From NCBI GenBank assembly GCA_029553375.1, contig JAKPCH010000004.1:1-62772 (forward strand): 62,772 nt of DNA, given 5' to 3'. Below the pieces are notes generated by a model. The model was given only the letters and a program-made list of their open reading frames with translations. It was not told where the DNA came from and made no database searches. This document shows positions 47,771-56,583 of the stretch, piece by piece (position 1 is the stretch's first letter; each line of letters opens with the position of its first letter). Source of the DNA: Deltaproteobacteria bacterium. Lineage in GTDB: Bacteria; Desulfobacterota; Syntrophia; Syntrophales; UBA8958. The translations under genes and the position numbers were made by a program.

Positions 47771-47799
47771 TTGCATTATCGGACACCCTATTGTACATT
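47771..47799 (+). promoter_or_regulatory. candidate promoter for the gcv operon
   Basis: TTGCAT (47771-47776) and TACATT (47794-47799) are 17 bp apart in an AT-rich segment about 100 bp upstream of gcvT. No glycine-riboswitch consensus is seen in the leader. Confidence 0.38.
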
Positions 47800-47899
47800 T
47801 CAGATTAATTATGGAAAACTTCTACGATTTTTCCTCGGCGACGGGGGGCGGCCCGACGCCCCGGACCCGGGGATAAGCCTTGTCAACGGACCGGCCTTG

Positions 47900-49021
47900 A
47901 TGAAAAAAACCCCTCTCTATGAAAGGCATATCGCCCTGGGAGGACGTATCATCGATTTCGGCGGTTGGGCGATGCCGGTCCAGTACGACACCGTCATGGC
48001 GGAACATGAGCGCACCAGGCAAGCCGCCGGTCTCTTCGACACCTGCCACATGGGGGAGGTGGAGATCCGGGGGGAGGGCGCGTTCTCCTTTCTCCAAAGG
48101 GTCCTCACCCGTGACCTGGCGGACCAGCGGCCCGGCCAGATGAGACTGAGCCTCATGACGAACGAAAGGGGGGGGATCCTCGACGACCTGACGGTCTACA
48201 TGCTCTCGGGGGACCGCTATTTGATCGTCACCAACGCGGCCACGAAAGACAAAGACCTGCAGTGGCTCCTGAAGATCCGAGACGAGGGAGGCTTCGGGGA
48301 TGTGGTCATCGAGGACGTGACGGCGACGACGGGCAAGGTCGATCTCCAGGGGCCGAAGGCGGAAGAGATCCTCCAGGTCCTGGTGCCCCATTATCTCCAC
48401 ACCCTTAAATTTTATCATTTCCTGGAGACGACGATCCTGGGGATGCCCGCCCTCGTCTCCCGCAGCGGTTACACCGGAGAGGACGGTTTCGAGATCTACG
48501 TGCCCGCCGAGGGGATCGGGAGGGTATGGGACCGACTGCTCCAGGTAGGAGGCGATTACGGTCTCAAGGCGGCCGGTCTCGGGGCCCGGGACACCCTCCG
48601 CCTCGAGGCGGGCCTGATGCTCTACGGCAACGAGCTCGACGAGGATGTCATCCCCTTCGAGGTGGTCTACGGATGGATAACGAACCTGGAGAAGGATTTC
48701 GTGGGCAGGGACGCCCTGAGGAGACGTTACGAGAAAGGGGTGGAGAGAAAGCTGGCGGGATTCATCTGCCGGGGGAGGGGAATCGCCCGCAAGGGCCACG
48801 GGGTCATGAAGGACGGCCGAGAGGTGGGGGTGGTGACCTCCGGGACCTACTCCCCCACCCTGGGAAAGGCCATCGGCCTCGCCTTCGTCCCCCCGGGCCT
48901 CGCCGTCTCGGGGACGGTCCTGGATATCGTGGTCCGTCAGAACGTCATACCCGCCCAGGTCGTGGATCTACCCTTCTATCGACGAAAACGGCAGTACTAC
49001 TTCTTTAATCTTTTCATCTAG
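47900..49021 (+). CDS. gcvT: aminomethyltransferase (glycine cleavage T protein)
   Basis: The 373-residue protein has the T-protein folate-binding features: YERHIALGGRIIDFGGWAMPVQY at the N-terminus, GLFDTCHMGEVEIRG, SRSGYTGEDGFEIYVP and 'LGARDTLRLEAGLMLYGNELDE'. It releases ammonia from aminomethyl-lipoyl-H protein and makes methylene-tetrahydrofolate. ATG 47900 is the family start; an in-frame upstream extension is unlikely. It is first in the gcv operon. Confidence 0.95.
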   Translation: MKKTPLYERHIALGGRIIDFGGWAMPVQYDTVMAEHERTRQAAGLFDTCHMGEVEIRGEGAFSFLQRVLTRDLADQRPGQMRLSLMTNERGGILDDLTVYMLSGDRYLIVTNAATKDKDLQWLLKIRDEGGFGDVVIEDVTATTGKVDLQGPKAEEILQVLVPHYLHTLKFYHFLETTILGMPALVSRSGYTGEDGFEIYVPAEGIGRVWDRLLQVGGDYGLKAAGLGARDTLRLEAGLMLYGNELDEDVIPFEVVYGWITNLEKDFVGRDALRRRYEKGVERKLAGFICRGRGIARKGHGVMKDGREVGVVTSGTYSPTLGKAIGLAFVPPGLAVSGTVLDIVVRQNVIPAQVVDLPFYRRKRQYYFFNLFI

Positions 49022-49043: not shown

Positions 49044-49442
49044 ATGGCCAGGATCACCCCGAAAGACCGATTTTACACGAAGGAACACGAATGGGCCCTC
49101 GACAACGGCGACGGGACCGTCACGGTGGGCATCACCGATCACGCCCAGGAGCTCTTGACGGACATCGTCTTCGTCGAGCTCCCCGAGAAGGGCAAGGTGG
49201 TGGCCCAGATGGAGACGTTGGCGGTGGTGGAATCGGTGAAATCCGTCTCCGACGTCTACGCCCCCGTGGGTGGGCGGGTCGTCGACGTGAACGGGAGACT
49301 GGAGGAACACCCGGAACTGATCAACAACGATCCCTACGGTCAGGGTTGGATAGCGAAGATTGCCATGGAAGACCCCTCGGAACTGGCCTCCCTCATGGAC
49401 GCCGAGGGATATGAAGCCATGATCGCCCAAGAGTCCCACTAA
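49044..49442 (+). CDS. gcvH: glycine cleavage system H protein, copy 2
   Basis: The 132-residue protein has the lipoylation site VVESVKSVSDVYAPV with Lys-66, plus 'YTKEHEWALDNGDGTVTVGITDHAQELL'. It sits between gcvT and gcvPA and is the operon's own carrier protein. It is markedly different from copy 1. Spacing is 22 bp to gcvT and 14 bp to gcvPA. Confidence 0.96.
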   Translation: MARITPKDRFYTKEHEWALDNGDGTVTVGITDHAQELLTDIVFVELPEKGKVVAQMETLAVVESVKSVSDVYAPVGGRVVDVNGRLEEHPELINNDPYGQGWIAKIAMEDPSELASLMDAEGYEAMIAQESH

Positions 49443-49456
49443 AAGAGGGTCAGGAA

Positions 49457-50788
49457 ATGGATTACACCCCCCACACGGATCGTGAACGGTCCCTGATGAT
49501 GGGAGTCGTGGGCGTCGCCTCCATCGACGAACTCTTCGCCGATATCCCCCCCGGGTGCCGCATCAACGGTGATCTCAGGCTGCCCCCACCCCTCTCGGAA
49601 CAGGAACTGGCCGCCCTCATGGAGGGGATCGCCGCCGAAAACCGTCTCCCCCGCCTCTGCCTTTTGGGGGCCGGGGCCTACCATCACTACATTCCGGCCG
49701 TGGTCCGCCACGTCGTCGCCAGGTCGGAATTCTACACCGCCTACACACCCTATCAGGCCGAAATAAGCCAGGGCATCCTCCAGGCCATCTACGAGTATCA
49801 AACGATGGTCGCCCGCCTGACGGGGACGGACGTGGCCAACGCCTCCATGTACGACGGGGCCTCTTCCCTGGCGGAAGGGGCGGTCCTCGCCGCCAAGACC
49901 CTCAACCGTAGCCGCATCGTCGTCGGCCGTGCCGTTCACCCCCGTTACCGGCGGGTCGTCGCAACCTACGCCTGGGCCAACGGATACGAGACGGTGGAGA
50001 TACCTTACGACGACACGGGCAGAACGGATCCATCGGCCCTGGGGGAGGCCCTGAACCCGGAGACGGCCGCCGTCCTCATCCAGAGTCCCAACTTCTTCGG
50101 CGTCATCGAGGATTTGGAGGCCCTGGCGCCCCCGGTCCACGAGGCAGGCGCCCTTTTGATCTCCTCCTTCACCGAGGCCACCTCCCTCGGCCTGTTGAAA
50201 CCGCCGGGACAGGCCGGTGCCGACATCGTCACGGGGGAAGGCCAGGCCTTCGGCAACCCCATCGGCTTCGGCGGCCCCCATCTCGGCATCTTCGCCGCCA
50301 AGAGCCGCTTCCTCCGGAAGATACCGGGCCGCCTGGCGGGGGCCACGGTGGACAGGGAGGGGAGACGGGGTTTCGTCCTGACCCTCCAGACGAGGGAACA
50401 GCACATAAGGAGGGAGCGCGCCACCTCCAACATCTGTTCCAACGAGGCCCTCTGCGCCCTGGCCGCCGCCGTCTACCTCGCCTGCCTCGGGAAGAACCTG
50501 CGGCGTCTGGCCGAAATCAACCTCCACAAGGCCCGCTACCTGAGGGATCTCCTGGTGGGACTGCCCGGCTGGGAAGGGCTTTTCCCGGCTCCCTTCTACA
50601 ACGAGTTCGCCCTCCGCTGTCCCGACCCGGCGGGGGCCAACGCCCTCCTCGAGGAGGAGGGCATCGTGGGAGGATACATCTTGGAAGATGACTATCCCGA
50701 ACTCAGGGGCGGGATCCTCCTTTGCGTCACCGAGACGGCCACCCGGCAGGATCTGGACAAGGCGGTCTCCATATTGAAGAAACTGTAA
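49457..50788 (+). CDS. gcvPA: glycine dehydrogenase (decarboxylating) subunit 1
   Basis: The 443-residue protein is the N-terminal-half P protein: LFADIPPGCRINGDLRLPPPLSEQEL, 'FLGAGAYHHYIPAVVRH' region, FYTAYTPYQAEISQGILQAIYEYQTMV and 'NASMYDGASSLAEG'. It pairs with gcvPB to form the split PLP P protein found in Firmicutes, archaea and many Desulfobacterota. It lacks the PLP lysine, which is in GcvPB. Confidence 0.96.
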   Translation: MDYTPHTDRERSLMMGVVGVASIDELFADIPPGCRINGDLRLPPPLSEQELAALMEGIAAENRLPRLCLLGAGAYHHYIPAVVRHVVARSEFYTAYTPYQAEISQGILQAIYEYQTMVARLTGTDVANASMYDGASSLAEGAVLAAKTLNRSRIVVGRAVHPRYRRVVATYAWANGYETVEIPYDDTGRTDPSALGEALNPETAAVLIQSPNFFGVIEDLEALAPPVHEAGALLISSFTEATSLGLLKPPGQAGADIVTGEGQAFGNPIGFGGPHLGIFAAKSRFLRKIPGRLAGATVDREGRRGFVLTLQTREQHIRRERATSNICSNEALCALAAAVYLACLGKNLRRLAEINLHKARYLRDLLVGLPGWEGLFPAPFYNEFALRCPDPAGANALLEEEGIVGGYILEDDYPELRGGILLCVTETATRQDLDKAVSILKKL

Positions 50789-50804: not shown

Positions 50805-51848
50805 ATGGAAGTGAACAAGACAGAACTCGCGGCTTGGGCTCCCCTCTACGAGGCGGCCATCAATTTCAAGAACCACCGGCCCTGGGAGTGGATGTACGAT
50901 CACGAGATCTTCGGGGTCGCAAACCCCCAGACGGGGGAGATAGGCTATTGCTCCGTCCTGGGCCACTTCAAGCAGGTCTATGCCCTCAACGTCAACCGCG
51001 GCACGGAGGGCCTCTTCGGTCACTTCGTCATGCAGAGCGTCGGTCAAGAAGAAGGGCCGGAGGCGGAAAACCGGCATGAGGTGCTCTTTTACCAGAATTG
51101 CCTCATGGCCTCCTTCGACGATCGGCAGTGGCTCGCCAAGGAGGAGCTGGAGATCATCAAGGCCCTGGGGCTCAGATTCCGCGGGAGAAACGCCTGGCCC
51201 AAGTTCCAGGATTATCGGCCGGGATATTTCCCTTGGTTTATCGAGGAGAAGGACATCTACTTCCTCACCGTGGCCCTGGAACAGGCCCTCGACGTGGTCC
51301 TGCGGTGCCGGGAGGACAAGTCCCTCATCGAGACGGGAGAGGACGAGGTCTTCCTCGTGAGGAAACCCGTTTTCGAGGAGAGGGGGATAGTATGGCACGA
51401 CACCTACCAGGAACCCGCCCCTTTCCATTTCACCATCCCCGATGACGGGCCCTTCGATGAGGTCGGCCTGCAACGGATCCTCAAAAAGACCCCCCAGGGG
51501 AAAGATGTCTGGGAGGCGGAGATCTTCCATTACCCCAACCCCGTCCGGGAGGGCAAAAATCGCCCCTACTTCCCTCTGACCTTCGCCGTGGTGGAAAAAA
51601 AGAAGGGCCTCCTCGTCCGGCTGGAGATCCTGCCCCTCGAGGGTTACGTCAAGGAGGCCCGGGATCTCCTGATCGCCGCCATGGAAGGGGCGGGCGTGAG
51701 GCCGCGGGAGATAAGGGTGATGACGGGCAGGGCCCACGACGTCCTCAAACCCGTGACGGACAAGGCGGGAATCACCCTGAAGAGGGTGGAGAGGCTGCCT
51801 GACCTGGAGAGGATGCGCAGGCATTTCCTCTCGTCTCTGATAAGCTGA
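50805..51848 (+). CDS. DUF7309/DUF6930-like protein of unknown function in the gcv operon
   Basis: The 347-residue soluble protein has no signal peptide and no known catalytic motif. The N-terminal part (EWMYDHEIFGVANPQTGEIGY, then 'RNAWPKFQDYRPGYFPWF' and 'YFLTVALEQALDVVLR') resembles DUF7309. The C-terminal part (FHYPNPVREGKNRPYFPLTFAVVEKKKG onward) resembles DUF6930, as recalled from Bacillus/Clostridium hypotheticals. Neither domain has an assigned role. It starts 16 bp after gcvPA and ends 32 bp before the cupin gene, so it is likely co-transcribed with the glycine cleavage genes. Nothing visible links it chemically to glycine. Confidence 0.65.
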   Translation: MEVNKTELAAWAPLYEAAINFKNHRPWEWMYDHEIFGVANPQTGEIGYCSVLGHFKQVYALNVNRGTEGLFGHFVMQSVGQEEGPEAENRHEVLFYQNCLMASFDDRQWLAKEELEIIKALGLRFRGRNAWPKFQDYRPGYFPWFIEEKDIYFLTVALEQALDVVLRCREDKSLIETGEDEVFLVRKPVFEERGIVWHDTYQEPAPFHFTIPDDGPFDEVGLQRILKKTPQGKDVWEAEIFHYPNPVREGKNRPYFPLTFAVVEKKKGLLVRLEILPLEGYVKEARDLLIAAMEGAGVRPREIRVMTGRAHDVLKPVTDKAGITLKRVERLPDLERMRRHFLSSLIS

Positions 51849-51880: not shown

Positions 51881-52201
51881 ATGGCCTTCGTCGATCTGGA
51901 AACCTTGGAGGAGAGGGAGATCGCCCCCGGTTTCAGGGCCAGGTTCGTCCACACGCCCAACGTCACCATCTCCTTCTGGCGCGTCGCCGCCGGTTCCGTT
52001 CTCCCCAGCCACCGCCATGCCCACGAGCAGGTCACGAACGTCCTCTCCGGTCGCTTCGAGATGACCGTGGCGGGGGAGACCCAAACGGCCGTGCCCGGAA
52101 TGACCGTCGTGATCCCCCAAAACGCCGAACACGGAGGTCGGGCCTTGACGGATTGCTACATCCTCGACGTCTTCTACCCCGTGCGGGACGACTATCGCTG
52201 A
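51881..52201 (+). CDS. small cupin-domain protein
   Basis: The 106-residue single-domain cupin has the metal-site motif PSHRHAHEQVTNVLSG (two His, Glu) and a later His in PQNAEHGG, with a beta-barrel pattern throughout. Small cupins bind a divalent metal and act as isomerases, dioxygenases or sensors; no substrate can be named. AAAGGAGG lies about 8 nt before the ATG. It is between the DUF7309-like gene and gcvPB. Confidence 0.85.
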   Translation: MAFVDLETLEEREIAPGFRARFVHTPNVTISFWRVAAGSVLPSHRHAHEQVTNVLSGRFEMTVAGETQTAVPGMTVVIPQNAEHGGRALTDCYILDVFYPVRDDYR

Positions 52202-52228
52202 CGCCTTGATCATCAGGTGGGGTGCGAG

Positions 52229-53677
52229 ATGGAATTGATCTTCGAGAAGAGTCGGCCCGGCAGAAGGGCCACGGTGCCACCGAGCTGTGACGTGCCCGAG
52301 AGGCCCCCGGAGGAGCTGATCGAGGGCCGGTTGTTGAGATCCGGGATCGACCTGCCCGAGGTGGCGGAGGTGGACATCGTCCGCCACTACACGGCCCTTT
52401 CGCGGCGCAACTTCGGTGTGGATGTGGGCTTCTATCCCCTCGGTTCCTGTACGATGAAGTACAACCCGAAGATCAACGAAGAGGCGGCGGGACACCGAGG
52501 TTTCACGGATATCCACCCCTTTGCCCCCATGGACCGGATACAGGGCAATCTCCGCCTGATGCACGAGCTGGGTCTGTACCTTGCGGAGATCTTCGGCATG
52601 GCGGAATTCTCCCTCCAGCCCGCCGCCGGCGCCCACGGAGAACTGACGGGGGTGATGATCATCAAGAAACATTTCGAAAAACGAGGGGAAAGGAGGGAAA
52701 AGATCCTCATCCCCGACGCCGCCCACGGGACGAACCCCGCCTCGGGGGCCCTCTGCGGTTACCGCGTCGTCACCGTCCCCACGGACGGCGAGGGTGGGGT
52801 GGACACGGCGGCCCTCGACCGCCTCATGGACACCGCCACGGCGGCCCTCATGCTGACCAACCCCAACACCCTGGGCCTCTTCGAGAAGAACATCCTCACC
52901 ATCGCCCGGATCGTCCACGAAAGGGGGGGGCTCCTCTACGGAGACGGGGCCAACGCCAACGCCTTCCTGGGCAAGACACGGCCGGGCGACCTGGGATTCG
53001 ACGTGATCCAGCTAAACCTCCACAAGACCTTTTCGACCCCCCACGGCTGCGGGGGTCCGGGCAGCGGGCCCGTGGGAGTGGGGCCCGAGCTGAGGGGCTA
53101 TCTGCCCGTGCCCCGGGTCGTCAAGGAAGACACGTCGGGCAGACCCCGGTATCGCCTCTCTTTCGAGGCCCCCGACACCGTCGGGGCGGTCCGGAGTTTC
53201 TGGGGGAACTTTCTCGTCCTCGTGAAGGCCTACGCCTACATAAGGGCCCTCGGGGCCGAGGGTCTGACGAGGGTGGCGGAGGATGCCGTCCTGAGCGCCA
53301 ATTACGTCATGGAGAGACTAAAGGACTACTACGACCGGCCTTACCAAAGGCGCTGCATGCACGAGTGCGTCTTCACCGGCGCCCGGCAGGCGAGGGAGTC
53401 GGGGGTCCACACGGCCGACATCGCCAAGAGGCTCCTGGACTACCAATTCCATCCCCCGACGATCTATTTCCCCCTCATCGTCCCCGAGGCGATCATGATC
53501 GAGCCCACGGAGACGGAGAGCCTCGAGACCCTCGACGCCTTCTGCGAGGCCATGATCGCCATCGCCCGGGAGGCGAGGGAAGATCCGTCCCTGGTCAAAG
53601 AGGCCCCCCACACGACCCCCGTCGGACGTCTCGACGAGGTCCGGGCGGCGCGGGAACCTGATGTCTGCTGGAGGTGA
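52229..53677 (+). CDS. gcvPB: glycine dehydrogenase (decarboxylating) subunit 2
   Basis: The 482-residue protein carries the PLP lysine K266 in LNLHKTFSTPHGCGGPG and blocks NFGVDVGFYPLGSCTMKYNP, 'QPAAGAHGELTGVMI' and DAAHGTNPASGALCGY of the C-terminal-half P protein. It decarboxylates glycine and passes aminomethyl to lipoyl-GcvH. ATG 52229 has AGGTGGGG upstream. Two foreign genes separate it from gcvPA. Confidence 0.96.
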   Translation: MELIFEKSRPGRRATVPPSCDVPERPPEELIEGRLLRSGIDLPEVAEVDIVRHYTALSRRNFGVDVGFYPLGSCTMKYNPKINEEAAGHRGFTDIHPFAPMDRIQGNLRLMHELGLYLAEIFGMAEFSLQPAAGAHGELTGVMIIKKHFEKRGERREKILIPDAAHGTNPASGALCGYRVVTVPTDGEGGVDTAALDRLMDTATAALMLTNPNTLGLFEKNILTIARIVHERGGLLYGDGANANAFLGKTRPGDLGFDVIQLNLHKTFSTPHGCGGPGSGPVGVGPELRGYLPVPRVVKEDTSGRPRYRLSFEAPDTVGAVRSFWGNFLVLVKAYAYIRALGAEGLTRVAEDAVLSANYVMERLKDYYDRPYQRRCMHECVFTGARQARESGVHTADIAKRLLDYQFHPPTIYFPLIVPEAIMIEPTETESLETLDAFCEAMIAIAREAREDPSLVKEAPHTTPVGRLDEVRAAREPDVCWR

Positions 53678-53687
53678 GTAGATAAGG

Positions 53688-55502
53688 ATGAAGAGCGTCA
53701 TCGCCATGACGAAAGGGGAGCTGGTGGAGAAGCTGTGGCAGGCCGATCCCCAGATCAAGAAGATCCTCAAGAACTCCAAGCACGTGGAGGAGGCGAGGCA
53801 CCTCCTCTTCGACTATTTCAACTACCTGAACCGCTCCATGTTCAACATGAAGCCCGACACCTACTACTCGAACATGAACATTACCGAGAAGCGCAACGCC
53901 CGGGAGTGCATCCGCGTCTTCTCCAACACCGTGCGGACGGAGAACGAGTATCTGACGGGGTTCTCCCCCCTGACCCACCTCTTCGACCTCGCCCAGGGGA
54001 AACCGGGGGCCCTCGAGGAGGTCAGCGAGGCCTTCCTGAGCGAATACGTTTTTCTCTTCCAGGGCATCACGGGCAAGGCGGGCAAGCACTCAAAAAGCCA
54101 GGACCTGTTCCAGATGACGGAGGGCCGGGAGGCGGCCCTCATCCGTTCCCAACAACTCGACAATTACGCCTCCATGATCCGGCGATACATGAGACGTTAC
54201 CGGTCCGGCATGGACCGCAGCGCCGTCAAGCAGCACAACGCCCTCAGGGAAAGGATCCTGGCCTACTTCGGGGCCGGCGAAGAGGACTGGAGAAACTACC
54301 TCTGGCACCTCAAGCACGTCATCAGGGACCTCAAGGTCCTCAGGGAGCTCGTGACCCTCGAGGCCGACGAGGTGGAGGGCCTGGAGGCGGCCAAGGAATA
54401 CGGTATCCCCTTCGAGATCACCCCCTATTACCTCTCCCTCTTCAACAGGGAGGGCCGGTGCGACGCCGACCGTCAGATCCGCGCCCAGGTCCTGCCGAGC
54501 GTCCGTTACTGCCGGAGGGTGGCGGAGAGCCGAGAAAGGGGGATCGACCTCGATTTCATGGGCGAGAGGTCCACGAGCCCCATCGACGGCATCACCCGGC
54601 GCTACCCCGAGATCCTGATCCTCAAGCCCTACAACTCCTGCCCCCAGATCTGCGTCTACTGCCAGCGGAACTGGGAGGTCAAGGCCATGGACGAGAAGGT
54701 CCTCATGAGCCGGAAGAAGGTCCGTGAGGCCATCGACTGGATCAGGGAACACGGGGGGATCAACGAGGTCCTGGTGACGGGCGGGGACCCCCTGACGATG
54801 CCCAACGACTACATCGATTGGCTCCTGGGCGAGATCGCCAAGATCGACCACGTGGAGAGGATCCGCATCGGCACCAGGACGCCCGTCACCCTCCCCTACC
54901 GCTTCAACGACGAATTGATCTCCATCCTCAAGAAATACCACCGCTGGGGCGAGAGGGAGATCGCCCTAGTGACCCACTTCGAGCATGCCGCCGAGATGAC
55001 CCCCGACGCCCAAGAGGCGGTGCGAAAGATCAAGGATGCCGGGTTAAACATCTATAATCAGCAGGTTTTCACCTATTACAACAGCCGGAGGTTCGAGACC
55101 TGTCAGCTCCGCAGGGTCCTGAAGCTGGCGGGGATCGATCCCTATTACTCCTTCAGCACCAAGGGGAAGGAAGAGACGGAAGACTTCCGGGTCCCCATCG
55201 CCCGGATCCTCCAGGAGAGGGCGGAAGAGGCCCGTCTCCTGCCGGGACTCGTCCGCACCGACGAACCCGTCTTCAACGTGCCCCGTCTCGGGAAGTCCCA
55301 GCTCCAGGCCTGGCAGGATCACGAGGTGATCATGATCACGCCGGACGGCCGGAGGGTCTACAGGTTCTACTCCTGGGAGGTGCGCCTCGTCACCTCCCGG
55401 GACTATCTGCACACCGACGTCCCCATCTACGGTTACCTCAAGCGCCTGGCGACAGACGGGGAAAACATCGCCGACTACAGCACCATCTGGTACTACTTCT
55501 GA
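53688..55502 (+). CDS. KamA-family radical SAM aminomutase, probable glutamate 2,3-aminomutase
   Basis: The 604-residue protein has the radical SAM cluster CPQICVYC (C318, C322, C325) and KamA blocks (ITPYYLSL, 'ILKPYNSC', RIGTRTPVTLP). Clostridial lysine 2,3-aminomutase uses D293 and D330 to hold lysine; here the aligned positions are K492 (in FSTKGKEETEDFRVP) and N530 (in PVFNVPRLGK), as reported for glutamate 2,3-aminomutase of Clostridioides difficile. K536 is the PLP lysine. Residues 1-190 are a helical N-terminal extension not found in lysine aminomutase. It starts 10 bp after gcvPB. Glutamate as substrate is inferred. Confidence 0.72.
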   Translation: MKSVIAMTKGELVEKLWQADPQIKKILKNSKHVEEARHLLFDYFNYLNRSMFNMKPDTYYSNMNITEKRNARECIRVFSNTVRTENEYLTGFSPLTHLFDLAQGKPGALEEVSEAFLSEYVFLFQGITGKAGKHSKSQDLFQMTEGREAALIRSQQLDNYASMIRRYMRRYRSGMDRSAVKQHNALRERILAYFGAGEEDWRNYLWHLKHVIRDLKVLRELVTLEADEVEGLEAAKEYGIPFEITPYYLSLFNREGRCDADRQIRAQVLPSVRYCRRVAESRERGIDLDFMGERSTSPIDGITRRYPEILILKPYNSCPQICVYCQRNWEVKAMDEKVLMSRKKVREAIDWIREHGGINEVLVTGGDPLTMPNDYIDWLLGEIAKIDHVERIRIGTRTPVTLPYRFNDELISILKKYHRWGEREIALVTHFEHAAEMTPDAQEAVRKIKDAGLNIYNQQVFTYYNSRRFETCQLRRVLKLAGIDPYYSFSTKGKEETEDFRVPIARILQERAEEARLLPGLVRTDEPVFNVPRLGKSQLQAWQDHEVIMITPDGRRVYRFYSWEVRLVTSRDYLHTDVPIYGYLKRLATDGENIADYSTIWYYF

Positions 55503-55701: not shown

Positions 55702-56583
55702 ATGAAGGAGGCCTCGGGCGGCACGATGAGGAAACCTTCCTGGCTGAAGGTCCGCCCCCCCCTGTCGGAATCATGCCGCGAGGTCAAGGGGATCCTCGCC
55801 CGCCGCCGCCTCCATTCGGTCTGCCAAGAGGCCCTCTGCCCCAACAGGGCCGAATGTTTTCGTGCGAAGACGGCCACCTTCCTCATCCTGGGCAACGTCT
55901 GCACCCGGAGGTGCGCCTATTGCAACATAGGAACGGGCATCCCCCAGGAACCGGACGAAACGGAGGCACAACGGTTGGCGGCGGGGGTGAAGGACCTGGG
56001 ACTTTCCTACGTCGTCATCACCTCCGTCACGAGGGACGACCTCCCCGACGGCGGAGCGGGACACTTCGCAAGGTGCATCGAGGCCGTAAGGACGGCCATC
56101 CCGTCCAGTCGCATCGAGGTCCTCATCCCCGATTTTCGCGGCCGTCGCGCCTCTTGGGACGAGGTGATCGCCGCCGACCCCTACCTGATCGGCCACAACA
56201 TGGAAACCGTCGCGGCCCTCTTCGGGGCCCTTCGTCCCCAGGGCGACTACCAAAGGTCCCTCGCCCTCCTCGCCGCCGTCGCCGACCGTCACGGGCGGCC
56301 GCCCAAGTCGGGTTTCATGGTGGGACTCGGGGAGGGGTGGAGAGACATCGAGGGCCTCCTTGTCGATCTGCACCGGGCGGGCTGCCGCCAGGTGACCATC
56401 GGCCAGTATCTCCAGCCCTCGCGCCGCCACTGGCCCGTCCGGCGGTACTATACCCCCGAGGAGTTCGCGGGGCTGAAGGAACTGGCCCTGTCTTTGGGCA
56501 TGGAGCATGTCGAGGCGGGCCCCCTGGTCCGGAGTTCCTACCGGGCGGCCCACCGGTACGGGGGGGACGCGGCCCCCCCTTGA
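55702..56583 (+). CDS. lipA: lipoyl synthase
   Basis: The 293-residue radical SAM enzyme inserts two sulfurs into octanoyl groups on GcvH or E2. Both clusters are visible: auxiliary C41, C46 and C52 (CQEALCPNRAEC) and radical SAM C67, C71 and C74 (CTRRCAYC), plus the C-terminal RSSYRA with the auxiliary-cluster serine. It lies at the end of the gcv operon, matching its job of lipoylating GcvH. Start ATG 55702 is assumed; ATG 55726 is possible. Confidence 0.96.
   Translation: MKEASGGTMRKPSWLKVRPPLSESCREVKGILARRRLHSVCQEALCPNRAECFRAKTATFLILGNVCTRRCAYCNIGTGIPQEPDETEAQRLAAGVKDLGLSYVVITSVTRDDLPDGGAGHFARCIEAVRTAIPSSRIEVLIPDFRGRRASWDEVIAADPYLIGHNMETVAALFGALRPQGDYQRSLALLAAVADRHGRPPKSGFMVGLGEGWRDIEGLLVDLHRAGCRQVTIGQYLQPSRRHWPVRRYYTPEEFAGLKELALSLGMEHVEAGPLVRSSYRAAHRYGGDAAPP

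Follow-up and report, generated by a model that had tools for sequence, protein, structure and literature searches.

A long, deeply branching group of KamA-family proteins in Syntrophales and methane-oxidising archaea includes a candidate non-lysine 2,3-aminomutase

Lysine 2,3-aminomutase (LAM; KamA/AblA, TIGR03820, PDB entry 2a5h) and glutamate 2,3-aminomutase (Eam, TIGR04368) are the described systems closest to the protein analyzed here. In LAM, R134 contacts the substrate carboxylate, K337 is the PLP lysine, and D293 and D330 bind the epsilon-amino group of lysine. Eam, as Ruzicka and Frey reportedly described in 2007, carries Lys and Asn at the two side-chain positions. The eam gene is found among the Na+-riboswitch osmolyte genes of bacteria (PMC9337991). 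The archaeal enzymes for beta-glutamate were incompletely identified as of a 2005 review, which also recounts that NMR labelling data from the methanogen under study spoke against a glutamate aminomutase (PMC1224877). In Methanoperedens, the MscS-kamA-ablB operon is an N-acetyl-beta-lysine operon that is induced by salt, and the genes downstream of ablB were described as being of function unknown (PMC11337218). Our literature search for reports on the long KamA family described below found no study.

Our analysis of a 62,772-nucleotide stretch of DNA (the window) from a deltaproteobacterium of the order Syntrophales (contig JAKPCH010000004.1) revealed a complete open reading frame for a long KamA-type protein (Table 1). 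The protein passed the cutoff of the KamA family model TIGR00238 (324.8 versus 199.2 bits) and missed the equivalog cutoffs of both Eam (251.7 versus 650 bits) and LAM (220.4 versus 525.4 bits). Arginine aminomutase (BlsG, TIGR04468; 151 bits) and EpmB (TIGR03821; 131 bits) have the KamA superfamily core in common with it, but their models scored more weakly and below cutoff, and one BlsG (L121) retains Asp at position 293. At full length, Eam was the top-scoring equivalog model (252 versus 220 bits for LAM), and it also scored above LAM on the catalytic part alone in all three long-family members tested (233 versus 221 bits for the window protein, 240 versus 199 for Methanoperedens, and 216 versus 186 for Poribacteria). 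The sole PDB sequence relative is LAM 2a5h, and identity to LAMs amounts to 31-36%. The AF2 model (mean pLDDT of 80) likewise had 2a5h as its top Foldseek match, with a TM-score of 0.70 by target length; because pLDDT fell below 50 in the pocket loops (residues 488-492 and 519-543), the model was taken as confirmation of the fold and set aside for residue-level reading. Together with the cluster Cys residues and the PLP Lys, these data bear out the original prediction of a KamA-family enzyme. The genome also encodes a second KamA protein of 362 aa (L002, G000:C26:11267-12265), in which Glu and Asp occupy the side-chain positions and the motifs YYLFHPEP and YVLDTPGALGK mark an acidic pocket.

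Table 1. Features of the long KamA gene and its neighbours (window coordinates)
Feature	Position	Strand	Basis or remark
gcvT	47771..49021	+	listed ORF; start codon probably too far upstream
gcvH	49044..49442	+	order conserved in relatives
gcvPA	49457..50788	+	order conserved in relatives
DUF7309 + DUF6930 protein	50805..51848	+	between gcvPA and cupin
Small cupin	51881..52201	+	between gcvPA and gcvPB
gcvPB	52217..53677	+	stops 10 bp 5' of KamA start codon
Long KamA-family radical SAM/PLP protein, 604 aa	53688..55502	+	ORF; TIGR00238 325 bits (cutoff 199); Foldseek best match LAM 2a5h
N-terminal all-helical domain, residues 1-146	53688..54125	+	structure prediction; Pfam/PDB searches without match
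Linker, residues 147-195	54126..54272	+	Eam model match; outside LAM model
Radical SAM cluster motif C318-x3-C322-x2-C325; R327 (counterpart of LAM R134, contacts substrate carboxylate)	54639..54668	+	alignment, conservation
K492, opposite LAM D293	55161..55163	+	alignment, hhalign; Lys 58/71, Gln 8, Met 5
K494	55167..55169	+	alignment; 71/71 long homologues, Phe in distant Bacteroidota proteins
N530, opposite LAM D330	55275..55277	+	hhalign, conservation; 70/70
K536, opposite LAM PLP lysine K337	55293..55295	+	hhalign, conservation; 70/70
lipA-like lipoyl synthase	55702..56583	+	199 bp 3' of KamA

In the alignment, C318, C322, C325, and R327 correspond to C125, C129, C132, and R134 of LAM. 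The prediction that K492 and N530 take the places of D293 and D330 held for both residues. K492 faces D293 without gaps, and it also faces a Lys in L065, a true Eam (716 bits, above the TIGR04368 cutoff) that carries Lys and Asn at both side-chain positions. Pairing N530 with D330 requires a one-residue gap, and default MAFFT sets D525 against D330 instead; however, hhalign, run with 34 long proteins against nine LAM, Eam, and related proteins, matched N530 to D330 and K536 to the PLP lysine with a probability of 100%. The Asp pair that binds the epsilon-amino group of lysine is consequently absent from the window protein, and its pocket is not of the lysine type, as had been proposed. An initial reading that K492 lies outside the pocket, drawn from the variability of this residue, was dropped, as Lys occupies the position in distant Bacteroidota proteins and in Eam.

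Conservation was scored over 71 distinct long homologues, of which 70 cover N530 and K536. R327, the three cluster Cys, and K494 did not vary in any of the 71 proteins, nor did N530 and K536 in the 70. All exceptions at position 492 came from Syntrophales-type loci, and those placed on the tree (L009, L010, L043, L011, and L013) fell into a single Syntrophales clade (support 91/84). One of them, L009, has Met at this position, yet keeps the whole gcv-KamA-lipA order. N530 is therefore clearly constrained, while K492 is usual but replaceable (58/71), and its loss in a clade that includes a member of the gcv operon type means that the substrate cannot be read from this residue by itself. The alignment behind the original Lys/Asn assignment holds, but K492, replaced in 13 of the 71 proteins, is weak evidence for the substrate.

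The protein shares with Eam the Lys/Asn pair and the linker before the barrel: the TIGR04368 match begins at residue 147 (profile position 3), and residues 147-195 add about 19 bits. It differs from Eam in its low identity (about 34% to L065), an extra 146-residue domain, another C-terminus, and its position on what appears to be a separate deep branch. With LAM it has in common the cluster motif, the carboxylate-binding Arg, the PLP lysine, and the barrel fold, but it lacks both Asp and possesses the long N-terminal domain and another C-terminus. The N-terminal extension is real and conserved in relatives, as claimed. Of its 190 residues, called unexplained in the original prediction, the linker part finds a counterpart in the Eam model; residues 1-146, predicted with good confidence to be all-helical and conserved across the long family, gave nothing convincing against Pfam, PDB sequences, or PDB folds. 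In an unrooted tree, Eam, the other KamA proteins, and the long family formed three deep groups, the last with a branch length of 3.2 changes per site. On this tree, the window protein appears to belong to a separate, uncharacterised deep clade of the KamA family with its own helical N-terminal domain, and by score it is not of the known Eam type, whose cutoff it misses by far (252 versus 650 bits). Two Bacteroidota "KamA family proteins" of 704-714 aa (L124 and L125) resemble it in the extension, in Lys at 492 and Asn at 530, and in the motif TD..V.N.P..GKS, but they are only 28-29% identical and differ by Phe at 494, an insertion before the PLP loop, and a very long branch. Both genes are plasmid-borne (L124:2416-4557 and L125:2407-4521), and L124 scores below the TIGR00238 cutoff (142 versus 199).

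Full-length relatives with 47-77% identity occur in Syntrophales, Omnitrophota, Elusimicrobia, Woesearchaeota, Chlorobiota, Poribacteria, and ANME-2/Methanoperedens, and a 598-aa version with 42-46% identity is present in archaea that we assign, by inference, to a Methanothrix-like group. The long gene was found in 37 of 155 sampled genomes of the window's order, in 41 of 200 from the class of Methanoperedens, and in 3 of 247 from the phylum of the Chlorobiota member; the viral contigs searched contained no relative. Two copies (G006:C211:42514-44258 and L033:7938-9548) are interrupted by an in-frame TAG or a frame change, reflecting either assembly error or decay.

The placement of the gene between gcvPB and lipA, noted in the original prediction, is repeated in roughly 20 Syntrophales loci (certain of them representing the same genome twice) from at least five families, and the arrangement is therefore old and probably functional. 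The DUF7309 + DUF6930 gene seems to have entered the gcv operon recently, because the markers in L004 and L005 run gcvPA-cupin-gcvPB without it. The small cupin gene occupies the same place between gcvPA and gcvPB in L004, L005, and L033 and lies before gcvPB in L038. The gcvT frame is listed from a TTG at 47771; its true start is probably further downstream (MKKTPLYERHIALGG). In one Syntrophales family, the long KamA gene lies downstream of genes for a TAXI-TRAP transporter and a 2,4-diaminopentanoate-dehydrogenase-like (DAPDH-like) protein, the three adjoining in L011, L012, L014, L105, L107, and L108; in L013, it stands beside genes for DAPDH, TRAP, a class III aminotransferase, and a beta-keto-acid cleavage enzyme (BKACE). 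A search for riboswitches near the gene, in the window and in sampled relatives, found none; a sub-threshold RNase P match was taken as chance.

In archaea, the surroundings are of another kind. Eight of the Methanoperedens-type genomes searched encode a true AblA (more than 525 bits) and carry the long gene as a second KamA, which in five of the eight lies within 3 kb of ablA. The genes are co-directional in the order MscS-ablA-ablB-KamA in L023 and L040, and in the order MscS-ablA-(ablB)-purD-like-EctA-like GNAT acetyltransferase-KamA in L151, L155, and L168. The purD-like ATP-grasp and EctA-like acetyltransferase genes (L151:6165-7992, L155:9819-11662, and L168:2789-4616) may act on a beta-amino acid. 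MscS-type channel genes occurred within 6 kb of the long gene in 9 of 30 archaeal genomes, compared with about 0.6 expected by our own arithmetic, which is uncorrected for relatedness; these neighbours are phylogenetically clustered and therefore not independent. Collectively, the archaeal contexts suggest an osmolyte role in some archaea. The predicted product, beta-glutamate as an osmolyte, finds indirect support only in these archaeal relatives, while in the window's lineage the neighbours were glycine cleavage and lipoate genes, and no osmotic neighbour genes were seen.

The motifs, the Lys/Asn replacement, and the co-occurrence with AblA lead us to infer that a non-lysine 2,3-aminomutase is likely. 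That the window protein is a radical-SAM, PLP-dependent enzyme of this kind which forms a beta-amino acid, with glutamate as the best single guess for its substrate, we regard as an even bet. In such an enzyme, SAM would be cleaved at the cluster held by C318, C322, and C325, the alpha-amino acid would be bound as an aldimine with displacement of K536, R327 would grip its alpha-carboxylate, and the amino group would be shifted from C2 to C3. Because the acidic pair is replaced by K492 (with the invariant K494) and the invariant N530, the bound side chain is probably not cationic, and L-glutamate would be converted to beta-glutamate. In Methanoperedens-type archaea, the product would probably be, or feed into, a beta-amino-acid compatible solute; in Syntrophales, the gene runs in the direction of the gcv operon and may contribute either to amino-acid metabolism or to that solute.

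Other readings of the locus have to be weighed against this one. It is possible, though we would not expect it, that the enzyme is a non-lysine aminomutase for another amino acid (e.g., glutamine, aspartate, alanine, or another neutral one), the substrate differing by subclade and the change of K492 to Gln or Met marking the switch. The variation of K492 next to a fixed K494 and N530 would fit this, as would the depth of the clade apart from Eam and the divergent contexts of its members (gcv/lipA, TRAP-DAPDH, the abl operon, and a lysine-fermentation-like cluster in L017); however, Eam tops the equivalog models in all members tested, and most members carry the Eam-type Lys/Asn pair. The L017 gene, which lies beside its cluster, and the family resemblance to LAMs could also be taken to indicate a loosely annotated LAM with a rearranged lysine-binding site. 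We consider this improbable, given the loss of both lysine-binding Asp, the score of 220 against a LAM cutoff of 525, and the true AblA encoded in the same operon, next to which a second LAM would be redundant.

The TAXI-TRAP and DAPDH-like neighbours in six loci, joined by the aminotransferase and BKACE in L013, point to a catabolic enzyme whose beta-amino acid would be oxidatively deaminated by the DAPDH-like protein, or transaminated and then split by BKACE in a reaction with acetyl-CoA. Five genes for BKACE and a single one for a DAPDH-like protein are present in the window's genome. Nevertheless, we find a catabolic role unlikely, as such a context is limited to the Gln492 clade, the archaeal contexts are osmotic, and the DAPDH-like protein of the window's genome is only 43% identical, with neither its gene nor that of the best-placed BKACE clustered with KamA. 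The idea that these two genes form an orthologous catabolic cluster was rejected as support, given the identities of 43% and 40% and the absence of linkage. Returning to glutamate as the substrate, we counted against it the distance to the Eam cutoff, the Gln or Met at position 492, the catabolic-looking context of the Gln492 clade, the NMR labelling result in the methanogen, and, in the window's lineage, the lack of osmotic neighbours and of a riboswitch near the gene.

We tentatively propose, with more doubt than confidence, that a new aminomutase family, distinct from Eam and LAM and with an N-terminal domain of its own, supplies a compatible solute in the form of beta-glutamate or a related beta-amino acid, and thereby a second branch alongside N-acetyl-beta-lysine, its hosts being ANME-2/Methanoperedens, Methanothrix-like archaea, and syntrophic bacteria. 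KamA-type matches in such genomes would then have to be read as lysine aminomutases only with caution. With its non-lysine pocket and its location, in methane-oxidising archaea, close to the N-acetyl-beta-lysine genes that salt induces, the long KamA protein is a concrete candidate for an archaeal beta-glutamate enzyme.
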